Of a DNA stretch of 6,990 nucleotides, positions 1 to 6,445 are shown piece after piece. Source of the stretch: a bacterium (GTDB lineage Bacteria; JAHJDO01); NCBI GenBank assembly GCA_030611945.1, contig JAUWOV010000084.1, positions 1-6,990 of the forward strand. The letters are read 5' to 3'. The notes below the pieces were generated by a model. That model saw only the letters and a list, made by a program, of their open reading frames with translations, was not told the origin of the DNA and searched no databases. Each line of letters starts with the position of its first letter. Position 1 is the first letter of the stretch. Position numbers and translations under genes: made by a program.

Positions 1-1
1 T

Positions 2-139
2 TGGCAATTAGCTAAAGATAAGGTGCCGAATCTGGACAAGCGCTTGCTTATGATTCCTCCTATTGACCTTGATACTGCGATTAGATTAGATCAGTCTTTT
101 TCTGCCCAGGGGGGTAATGATGTGTTGACCGTTCCCTAA
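2..139 (+). CDS. C-terminal fragment of an unidentified protein (5' end outside the window)
   Basis: An open frame enters from the left edge and runs 45 codons to a TAA at 137-139. It begins Trp-Gln-Leu-Ala-Lys and ends Gly-Asn-Asp-Val-Leu-Thr-Val-Pro; the middle carries a Leu-Met-Ile-Pro-Pro-Ile-Asp-Leu-Asp stretch. Composition looks like ordinary protein and codon choice resembles the neighbours, so I infer a real gene tail rather than chance. I do not recognise the family. Its last 54 nt overlap, tail to tail, the 3' end of the minus-strand apbE gene. The last roughly 20 residues of ApbE lie past the usual family end, which makes the plus-strand reading the better candidate for the selected frame in the overlap. 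No terminator hairpin is visible after it. Confidence 0.5.
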   Translation, partial: WQLAKDKVPNLDKRLLMIPPIDLDTAIRLDQSFSAQGGNDVLTVP

Positions 140-1198
140 AACTGGTTTGATATTTGCTAATCCTGACGATTTTATTAGATTTAAATTACCGTCTTTTATA
201 GTAATTATTAATGCTTCTACGCCTTTTAATTTTTCTATTAGTTCCATCCCTTTTTTCTCTCCAAGCACTGTTATTGCTGTTGCCAGACTGTCAGAAGTCA
301 AACAATCTGGGGAGAATATAGAAACACTTACTATTTGATTATTTACCGGATAACCTGTTCTTGGGTCAATTATGTGGGAATATCTCTTGCCGTTCAGCAT
401 AAAAAATCTTTCATAATTTCCGGAGGTTGCAACTGCGCTGTCCCTCAAGTTTATAATTCCTATAATCTTATCCTTTTCTATGGGATGTTTTATGCCTATT
501 TCCCACAGTTTCCCATCCTCTCGTTTGCCAATAGCTCTGATATCGCCTCCTGCGTCAACAAGAGCTCCTTTAATATCATAGCTCTTAATAAGATTTATAG
601 CCATATCTACTGCATATCCCTTGGCTAATGCGCCCAAGTCAATTTTCATGCCCGCTTTATTGAACTTCACCACGTTAGAGAAAGCCACCGATTTTAATTG
701 GTGGTCGTCATCGCAGTCTGTTAGAGAACGGAGTTCTCTAACGTGGTTCACATTATTGTTTTCTATTAAAATATCTCTGTATCCAACAAGAGATAAAGTC
801 TTTAGAATATTCTGCGCATCCGGAAACTCTTTTGATTTTTTGGCATTATGCCATATATCAATTAACGGCTTACACGTAATATCAAACGCCCCACCTGATA
901 ACTCTGAAGCATAACGGGCTTTGTTTATCACATACAGAAGTTCTCTGCTGAATTTCTGTTCACCTCCACCTGTTTTGTTTAGCAGGCACAGTTCACTATC
1001 CGGTTTATGGGCACTCATAATATTTTCTATTCTTGATATTTCTTGAAACCCAGCCCGAGCTGCTGAGCGTATTATTGCTCTGCTGTTTCCAACAACAATG
1101 ATATTTACTTCTGTGCCCATTAAGAATTTTGTTTCTTCATAACGGATGGCACGGGGAGAACAACCTGTAATTAAGAACACAGAAAACAAAAGAATCAA
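86..1198 (-). CDS. apbE: FAD:protein FMN transferase, ApbE family, lipoprotein
   Basis: ApbE enzymes use FAD and Mg2+ to attach FMN covalently to a Thr/Ser of target proteins such as RnfG/RnfD or NqrB/NqrC, outside the cytoplasmic membrane. The N-terminus is a hydrophobic signal ending in a lipobox (Leu-Ile-Thr-Gly-Cys, Cys13), so the product should be a membrane-anchored lipoprotein. Family motifs in order are FLMGTEV (25-31), IDLGALAKGYAVD (186-198), DAGGDI (215-220), ATSGNYERF (257-265), HIIDPRTGYPV (275-285) and the metal-site segment around Asp303 and Thr307. The annotated start is TTG at 1198 and has no good Shine-Dalgarno; an ATT at 1219 or 1216 would add a Lys to the signal n-region (see findings). 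Residues about 150-176 are not part of the normal fold: they are encoded by a palindromic insertion. The C-terminal 20 residues or so exceed the family end and overlap the convergent gene. It is third in a probable rny-ymdB-apbE operon. No target flavoprotein is in the window. Confidence 0.93.
   Translation of the reverse strand: MILLFSVFLITGCSPRAIRYEETKFLMGTEVNIIVVGNSRAIIRSAARAGFQEISRIENIMSAHKPDSELCLLNKTGGGEQKFSRELLYVINKARYASELSGGAFDITCKPLIDIWHNAKKSKEFPDAQNILKTLSLVGYRDILIENNNVNHVRELRSLTDCDDDHQLKSVAFSNVVKFNKAGMKIDLGALAKGYAVDMAINLIKSYDIKGALVDAGGDIRAIGKREDGKLWEIGIKHPIEKDKIIGIINLRDSAVATSGNYERFFMLNGKRYSHIIDPRTGYPVNNQIVSVSIFSPDCLTSDSLATAITVLGEKKGMELIEKLKGVEALIITIKDGNLNLIKSSGLANIKPVLGNGQHIITPLGRKRLI
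666..751. mobile_element. In-frame nested-palindrome insertion inside apbE, with 5-bp direct repeats
   Basis: The element lies between direct repeats TTCAC (666-670) and TTCAC (747-751). Its ends are inverted: CACGTTAGAGAA at 671-682 and its complement at 734-745. With flanking bases the perfect inverted repeat is 14 bp (669-682 against 734-747). Inside are two further hairpins. CCACC at 685-689 pairs with GGTGG at 700-704, extended inward by A-T and G-T pairs. GTTAGAGAAC at 720-729 pairs perfectly with 733-742 around a GGA loop. The repeat-to-repeat distance is 81 bp, exactly 27 codons. Removing it gives ApbE the continuous sequence NNNVKFNKAGMKIDLG, which matches the ordinary family layout. 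No transposase is present, so this would be a non-autonomous miniature element; the mechanism is inferred. Confidence 0.75.
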
Positions 1199-5258: not shown

Positions 5259-6445
5259 AATTACCTGATAAGCGCGGTCGCTTTGGAGAATTTGGCGGTA
5301 AATTTGTGCCTGAAACTGTTATACCTGCGCTCCTGGAACTTGAGAAAGCCTATTTATCTGCAAAAAAAGACAAAAGCTTTCAAAAAGAATTAAATTATTA
5401 TCTGTGTGAATATGCAGGCAGACCTTCACCTCTATATTTTGCCCAAAGGCTTACCAAAAGGCTTGGAGGAGCAAAAATATATCTTAAAAGAGAGGATCTC
5501 CTGCATACAGGAGCGCATAAGATTAATAATACCCTTGGACAGGTACTACTTGCCGTAAAAATGGGGAAAAAGAGAATTATCGCAGAAACCGGCGCAGGAC
5601 AACATGGGGTTGCAACAGCAACTGCTGCGAGTATGTTCGGGCTGGAATGTGAAGTGTTCATGGGCACAGAAGATATTCAAAGACAATCCTTAAATGTATT
5701 CAAAATGAAGCTCCTTGGAGCAAAAGTTACACCCGTAACCTCTGGAAGCAGGACGCTCAAAGATGCTACAAATCAGGCGATTAGAGACTGGGTTACAAAT
5801 GTCAGGATCACACACTATGTTATTGGCTCTGTTGTTGGTCCTCATCCATATCCAATGATTGTGAGGGATTTTCAAACAGTTATTGGTAAAGAGACCAGAA
5901 AACAAATTCTCAGGATTGAAAAAAAATTACCTGACTATATTGTGGCATGTGTTGGCGGAGGAAGTAATTCCATAGGGATTTTTTATCCATTCATACCTGA
6001 GAGGAAAGTTTCTCTTATTGGTGTGGAAGCCGCAGGTTTCGGCATAAAAACAGGTAAGCATGCCGTAACACTGGGAAAAGGGACAGTAGGCACGCTTCAT
6101 GGAAGTATGAGTTATCTCTTACAAGATGGCGACGGACAGATAAAAATAGCGCATTCAATCTCTGCAGGACTTGATTATCCCGGAGTTGGTCCGGAGCATA
6201 GCTTTCTGAAGAAAACAGGCAGAGCTAAGTATCATTCTATTACAGATAAGGAGGCTCTGGAAGGGTTCAAGCTGCTTTGCAAGACAGAGGGTATTATCCC
6301 TGCTTTAGAGACTGCTCATGCAATCGCTTATGTAAAAAAACTTGCGCCCAAGCTCAAGAAAAATCAAACAATTATAATCTGTCTTTCCGGCAGAGGAGAT
6401 AAAGACGCAGACACAGTAGCAAAGGTGCTGGGAGTAAAGCTGTGA
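5255..6445 (+). CDS. trpB: Tryptophan synthase beta chain
   Basis: TrpB (EC 4.2.1.20) is the PLP enzyme that joins indole to L-serine to form tryptophan, as the core of an alpha2-beta2 complex. At 396 residues it is a standard TrpB1. The N-terminus has [14 protein letters not shown] (7-20). PLP binds Lys89 in [10 protein letters not shown] (84-93). Glu111 in [10 protein letters not shown] (111-120) is the catalytic acid, GGGSN (234-238) is the phosphate-binding loop, [13 protein letters not shown] (303-315) is the conserved substrate segment, and SGRGDKD (378-384) is the C-terminal signature. The start overlaps the trpC stop as ATGA with a GGTGAAGAAG site just upstream, and its stop overlaps the trpA start as GTGA. 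Both point to translational coupling. Confidence 0.98.

Follow-up and report, generated by a model that had tools for sequence, protein, structure and literature searches.

An in-frame palindromic insertion in apbE and its probable kinship with GIY-YIG-nuclease elements

The insertion in apbE

The stretch of DNA that we analysed (the window, 6,990 nucleotides) carries on its minus strand an apbE gene, the reading frame of which crosses a palindromic segment bounded by short direct repeats. The features are as follows (TIR, terminal inverted repeat).

86-1198, minus strand: apbE host gene, FAD:protein FMN transferase (PF02424, E = 1.3e-87; matches to ApbE proteins of the PDB); its reading frame crosses the element.
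666-669: target-site duplication copy 1, TTCA (TGAA on the coding strand), single at the empty site of congeners and following the 4-bp YNNR rule of the family.
670-682, minus strand: 3' TIR of the coding strand, CCACGTTAGAGAA on the plus strand, 13 bp, perfectly complementary to 734-746.
670-746, minus strand: palindromic mobile element, 77 bp; 81 bp are absent in three congeneric species, the folding z is about -4, and relatives occur elsewhere.
685-704: inner hairpin CCACC/GGTGG, present in the minimum-energy folds; related copies in L146, L171 and G309.
720-742: inner hairpin GTTAGAGAAC-3 nt-GTTCTCTAAC, competing with the outer stem; of the same type as the free-standing 31-bp copies L169, L171, L178 and L292.
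734-746, minus strand: 5' TIR of the coding strand, TTCTCTAACGTGG on the plus strand, 13 bp, perfectly complementary to 670-682.
747-750: target-site duplication copy 2, TTCA; empty site in congeners.

The element is 77 bp long, gene-free and bounded by perfect 13-bp TIRs, as in MITEs; relative to the family core CCCCGTTAGA, each TIR arm carries one paired change. The inverted ends, 81-bp length, preserved frame and lack of a stop reported in the initial annotation are all present in the sequence: together with one duplication, the element adds 81 bp and thus 27 residues to ApbE (NHVRELRSLTDCDDDHQLKSVAFSNVV), and the frame through it reads NHVR...FSNVV with no stop. The 5-bp TTCAC repeats described at its borders do exist, at 666 and 747, but the fifth base is ambiguous because the last base of the element is identical to the adjoining host base. 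A 4-bp duplicated target (TTCA) is the preferred reading, in line with the 4-bp duplications of the family, and it places the element at 670-746. As for the two nested hairpins also described, the structure comprises a single outer stem (670-682/734-746) and both inner hairpins are possible (720-729/733-742 and 685-689/700-704), but the former competes with the outer stem. The folding energy corresponds to z = -4.0 as DNA and -3.9 as RNA, one of 200 shuffled sequences folding equally well, and the element had no match in Rfam.

The alignment of apbE orthologues showed that three congeneric species (G002, G003 and G004) lack exactly these 81 bp, the empty site being the single-copy AATGTGAAGTTC in G002 and G004, and the diverged AGTGTTAAGTTT in G003. 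The proposed mobile insertion thus passed the comparison with orthologues, which are devoid of the 27 residues and have a single GTGAA. Sequence data alone could hardly make a stronger case that this segment is a non-autonomous TIR element that was inserted here. Aligned to the solved ApbE 7esa, the insert falls within a four-residue connector, just before the conserved DLGAIAKG. A surface-loop position, as fits a short connector between two aligned stretches of solved ApbE, is plausible, and the 27 residues probably constitute a tolerated loop.

The 3' end of apbE overlaps another repeat (window 1-150), which is multicopy, common to many contig ends of the host genome, and the source of the final ~22 ApbE residues. 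Its alternative frame (WQLAKDKVPNLDKRLLMIPPIDLDTAIRLDQSFSAQGGNDVLTVP) had no Pfam match, and it is probably the end of an unassembled repeat, e.g., an insertion sequence.

Copies in the host genome and in other phyla

Six two-ended copies were found in the host genome, in agreement with the multicopy nature that had been supposed, and they include those on contigs C103, C80, C104, C83 and C88. Hence, neither a 27-residue segment common to all orthologues nor a palindrome devoid of further genomic copies was observed. The sister copy of C103 lies between rplL and rpoB (gene names from ORF reading) and reads 'TGAA CCACGTTAGAGAATTTTCTCTAAGCGTGG TGAA'. This 29-bp copy (G000:C103:10856-10890; L007 2357-2396) stands just upstream of the rpoB start, where it could influence how the RNA polymerase subunit is translated; C67 and C103 have the CCAC variant of the ends in common. 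The C80 copy (flanks TAAA/TAAA) is crossed by no long ORF. The C104 copy (flanks TTTA/TTTA) is inside an OppF-type ABC gene (INPVRKDFSNGVN), the G004 orthologue of which also carries the insert. The C83 copy, inside a Na/Ca exchanger gene (SPVRSNPESFRGVAHLVRTSNGVN), is absent from all four congeneric exchangers, the adjoining linker being also variable in length, and the C88 copy is inside a MacB gene (DPVRSNPESFRDATSMAQTSNGAA). The intragenic copies of the host genome, the number and frame of which the initial annotation had proposed to determine, are four and share one reading phase, the OppF-type, exchanger and MacB copies reading PVR...SNG. Both the mobility of the element and its in-frame tolerance are well supported.

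Half or decayed copies occur in the host genome on C38, on C77 and in the UvrD helicase gene of C108. The latter was considered as a clean insertion common to three congeners and was rejected upon alignment, which showed a decayed half copy with a 4-codon difference only. With the search pattern used, G002 and G003 have no two-ended copy.

A scan for the exact palindrome CCCCGTTAGA-(3 to 63 nt)-TCTAACGGGG, a pattern that sets the upper limit of the scanned copy length, covered a domain-wide sample of 385 genomes. The palindrome occurred in 24 of them, versus none of the 385 with the reversed-pattern control, and a collection of 84,980 species contained at least 115 stretches with CCCCGTTAGA...TCTAACGGGG ends. 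The hosts of these stretches include Omnitrophota, Patescibacteria, Planctomycetota, Phycisphaerae, Nitrospirota, Deltaproteobacteria, Cloacimonadota, Aenigmatarchaeota, archaea and others, so that the family, first thought to be that of a single lineage, crosses phyla instead. Identical 4-bp direct repeats flank 61 of 124 distinct copies (0.5 expected), an excess that no other length or offset approaches, and the flank consensus is G-YNNR / YNNR-C; among the 63 copies with non-identical 4-bp flanks, 42 nonetheless agree with YNNR left and right. Stem positions 11, 12 and 13 are complementary in 118/124, 97/123 and 83/119 copies, respectively, despite differing bases, and pairing is at background from position 14 onward (27/100). 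The scanned copies span 26-81 bp and have otherwise very variable interiors; since two strong inner hairpins are confined to one subclass, mostly of 65-bp copies, the interior structure is no family rule. The subfamily of the window copy, in which GTTAGAGAAC-NNN-GTTCTCTAAC is followed by an asymmetric hairpin, is also represented in G001, G309, L146, L171 and L198. A literature search, which covered few subscription journals, found no prior account of the CCCCGTTAGA palindrome family, which is apparently undescribed.

G309 has four near-identical 80-bp copies on C51 and C54 (L284-L287), at least three of them in related ORFs in the frame VHPVR...SNG, and these were either duplicated along with the genes or recently amplified. 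Similar hairpins on phage contigs (L121, L123, L126, L128, L138, L130, L131 and L144) have flanks that are inverted, not repeated; these inverted GC..GC or AT..AT flanks led us to reject the viral hits as elements, and they are probably transcription terminators.

Coding compatibility was assessed in genes regarded as interrupted when the flanks join in one frame once the insert is removed, with 80 codons per side. In such genes, insert length plus four is divisible by three in 25 of 26 cases, and the frame is open in 24 of 26. An ORF-based set gave 33 of 34 copies in frame, a count that is partly circular as it required an open frame, the non-circular count being 25/26. At frame-keeping lengths, each strand offers two open frames through the TIRs, PVR...SNG(V) or TPLE...LTG, which are used by 27 and 7 copies of the ORF-based set, respectively. 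The initial annotation proposed that the element tolerates or favours coding-compatible insertion: the in-frame excess is real, but among intergenic copies frame-keeping lengths are only weakly in excess (31/71, p = 0.08), so that selection against frameshifts suffices to explain the bias.

Several copies (L239, L241, L240, L202 and L216) split ATGAAA start codons at A|TGAA|A; by ORF reading, the genes hit are prolyl-tRNA synthetase-like (L239), response-regulator-like (L241) and glycosyltransferase-like (L240), and a start is provided by an ATG within the element and/or a GTG restored at the junction GGGG|TGAA. Another ATG start codon is hit at a TGAA/TGAT site in L367 (2315-2620), where a GTG is left at the downstream junction.

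GIY-YIG elements and the origin of the palindromes

In three genomes rich in such ends, TIR sites number 50, 31 and 37, versus 0, 3 and 0 in the control. Larger elements with the same kind of borders encode a GIY-YIG nuclease. One of them, in G385 (a genome with a Jorgensenbacteria contig), measures 277 bp; its CCCCGTTAGAGACA TIRs are perfect, the duplicated target is TGAT, and a GIY-YIG ORF with one stop fills the interior. G254 has two elements of 126-127 bp that keep only the first part of the GIY-YIG ORF, and internally deleted copies still carry MFYTYVLRSEKDGRRYTGITENL.

A PF01541 search was performed on 30 genomes, mostly picked for carrying the palindromes, and 60 loci with short-frame matches were then read. 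Exact inverted repeats of at least 11 bp, directly bounded by identical 4-bp repeats, were found at six of these 60 loci (L418, L422, L429, L433, L452 and L454), L454 being a 130-bp derivative. The other five have a GIY-YIG ORF between TIRs with a 4-bp duplication; the window copy has no ORF. When a duplication was not required, 19 of 60 stand-alone GIY-YIG loci were bracketed by inverted repeats, versus 3 of 60 with the non-complement control. L417 and L427 have CCCCGTTAGA-type TIRs and YNNR but non-identical flanks, and GIY-YIG elements with CCCCGTTAGA TIRs in other genomes are L417 and L433. The clear elements cluster at 254-305 bp, and the full-length ones of 254-285 bp enclose a single nuclease ORF of ~90 aa, intact in L417, L427, L418, L422 and L429, which starts in the left TIR and ends in or just past the right TIR (SLTG). 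These ORFs match Pfam GIY-YIG (PF01541, E ~1e-15), with a weak similarity to TIGR01453, and their signature residues (Y, G, R, H and E) are conserved in the alignment. The TIR sequences differ between elements (CCCCGTTAGA, TCCTGTTAGA, CCCAGCACCTC, CCCCGCCCTCT and CCCCGCCCCCAT).

From the near-identical ends, the same type of duplication and the intermediate deletions in other genomes, GIY-YIG elements are likely the parents of the window element, which itself keeps no GIY-YIG sequence and is linked to them by shared ends and duplication type. In neither the host genome, which is 91% complete, nor those of its congeners did the PF01541 search find a stand-alone GIY-YIG gene, the congeners' hits being mostly long-frame and UvrC-like; the mobiliser is therefore absent from the host, lost or unassembled. 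It may be that the element is by now stranded in this genome, or that the missing 9% contains the gene. No GIY-YIG relatives were found on plasmids and only distant ones in phages, none of 15 GIY-YIG hits on viral contigs having these ends. The literature search, limited to few subscription journals, found no account of TIR-bounded GIY-YIG elements in prokaryotes.

Several neighbouring observations concern the same genes. In a Microgenomates genome, one 23S rRNA gene (L190 3631-6374) contains a GIY-YIG gene at 5269-5538 together with a CCCCGTTAGA palindrome at 5758-5832. At L415, L430, L440, L466 and L467, inverted repeats belonging to other palindrome families (TTCTGTCATTCCCG, CGGGGAATCCAG, CGAAGCAATCTCA and GGGGATGACAG) enclose GIY-YIG genes, which suggests a wider association between GIY-YIG genes and palindromes. 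In G309, a four-helix-bundle protein gene (23S rRNA intervening-sequence type) lies between two such ends (L368 1383-1952); the ~1-kb element considered around it was set aside, its right end belonging to a separate 101-bp palindrome.

Four other origins of the window element were weighed. An unseen DDE or other ordinary transposase might move the palindromes as a MITE family, the GIY-YIG genes being passengers between the same ends. TIRs and a fixed 4-bp duplication are indeed typical of DDE elements, and the lack of a stand-alone GIY-YIG gene in the host genome points the same way, yet no transposase was bounded by these TIRs in the loci examined, and the GIY-YIG ORF fills nearly the whole interior, ends at the TIR (SLTG) and occurs with several TIR sequences; we consider this origin rather unlikely. 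When TIR pairs were used to look for autonomous copies in the first 8-kb loci, only adjoining palindromes paired. It is extremely improbable that the element is a single-strand hairpin element of the IS200/IS605 or REP/RAYT type, moved by a Y1 transposase: the hairpins are strong and Y1 matches occur in each of the five genomes of the genus, but these ends are on none of the genus's Y1 loci, and the flanks co-vary as 4-bp duplications with a single-copy empty site, whereas such elements do not duplicate their target.

Membership of the Rickettsia palindromic element (RPE) family proper would account for short palindromes inserted in frame in conserved genes (PMC2229807, PMC10969869). We regard it as very improbable, since RPEs are reported to differ in size (105-146 bp) and host range, with no duplication reported for them, the comparison being by description only. 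The continuous ORF could evoke a segment native to apbE, a hairpin with a regulatory role or a palindrome arisen by chance, but this reading retains virtually no probability: it is already refuted by the empty site of the congeners, the segment being absent from them and, at that point, from solved ApbE sequences, with relatives in unrelated genes and no Rfam counterpart.

We consider it quite probable that the window element derives from GIY-YIG-nuclease elements as a non-autonomous, MITE-like form and belongs to a cross-phylum family on which the nuclease would act in trans. We propose that the element inserted into apbE at a TGAA site, thereby duplicating this 4-bp target, and that the insertion survived because element and duplication make 81 bp and entered the frame stop-free. 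The GIY-YIG nuclease, which we infer to be the mobilising enzyme, through a staggered cut and the recognition of the folded form, would act in trans on the folded element ends and on the YNNR target, making staggered cuts 4 bp apart; the hairpin element would be inserted between the cuts, and gap repair would then duplicate the target. A broader proposal, to which we would give equal weight for and against, is that a new class of DNA transposons (~250-300 bp, diverse and mostly CCC-starting TIRs, 4-bp YNNR duplications) moves by means of GIY-YIG nucleases alone, and that its deletion derivatives are the in-frame palindromes in proteins of many uncultivated phyla and possibly also the RPEs of Rickettsia.

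Implications and comparison with known systems

To our knowledge, protein-coding palindromes have stayed unexplained since the Rickettsia reports, with no agreed duplication signature and no known mobiliser. In the CCCCGTTAGA family, insertion leaves a precise signature (4-bp YNNR, 13-bp TIRs) and an enzyme can be put forward as a candidate, which makes palindrome mobility directly testable. It also offers a route by which segments of 11-27 residues enter proteins in frame in many phyla, and by which new N-termini arise when start codons are hit. A caution follows for metagenomic proteins: a short 'PVR...SNGV' or 'TPLE...LTG' stretch in them can derive from a mobile element. Should the nuclease drive the movement, GIY-YIG elements would rank with the smallest DNA elements known to mobilise themselves, and transposition would be performed by an enzyme class that, as far as we know, is not known to act as a transposase.

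The GIY-YIG domain is otherwise tied to DNA mobility in homing endonucleases (group I intron or free-standing) and in Penelope-like elements. The TIR elements share this nuclease domain (PF01541), but they have no intron or reverse transcriptase, and the TIRs that enclose their gene come with 4-bp duplications at numerous unrelated sites. IS200/IS605, REP/RAYT and PATE elements use a Y1 transposase and do not duplicate their target; the window family also has hairpin ends, but it duplicates its target and none of the Y1 loci of the genus has these ends.

Bacterial MITEs are usually TA-ended, and their partner, where known, is of an IS family. Those of the Correia/NEMIS, RUP and ERIC type are non-autonomous, with TIRs and a target duplication, and are sometimes fused to ORFs (PMC2229807). 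The window element is likewise non-autonomous and multicopy, with TIRs and a target duplication, but the apparent partner of its family is a GIY-YIG nuclease element of about 270 bp.

We know of no mobiliser of RPEs. These elements and their Wolbachia equivalents are short palindromes tolerated in frame in unrelated conserved genes, with intergenic copies and a conserved peptide translated from the element (PMC10969869, PMC2229807, PMC3767692). They measure about 100-150 bp, come from Rickettsia and Wolbachia, and have their target duplication entered as '?' (PMC2229807). The window family also occurs in frame in conserved genes and in intergenic copies, so that the parallel drawn by the initial annotation holds for behaviour, i.e., in-frame insertion. 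In contrast, the window copy measures 77 bp and its family 26 to ~300 bp, with other phyla as hosts, a 4-bp YNNR duplication and GIY-YIG-encoding full-length relatives. By analogy, the window element would work like RPEs; we claim no membership of their family, from which descriptions of size and host set it apart.
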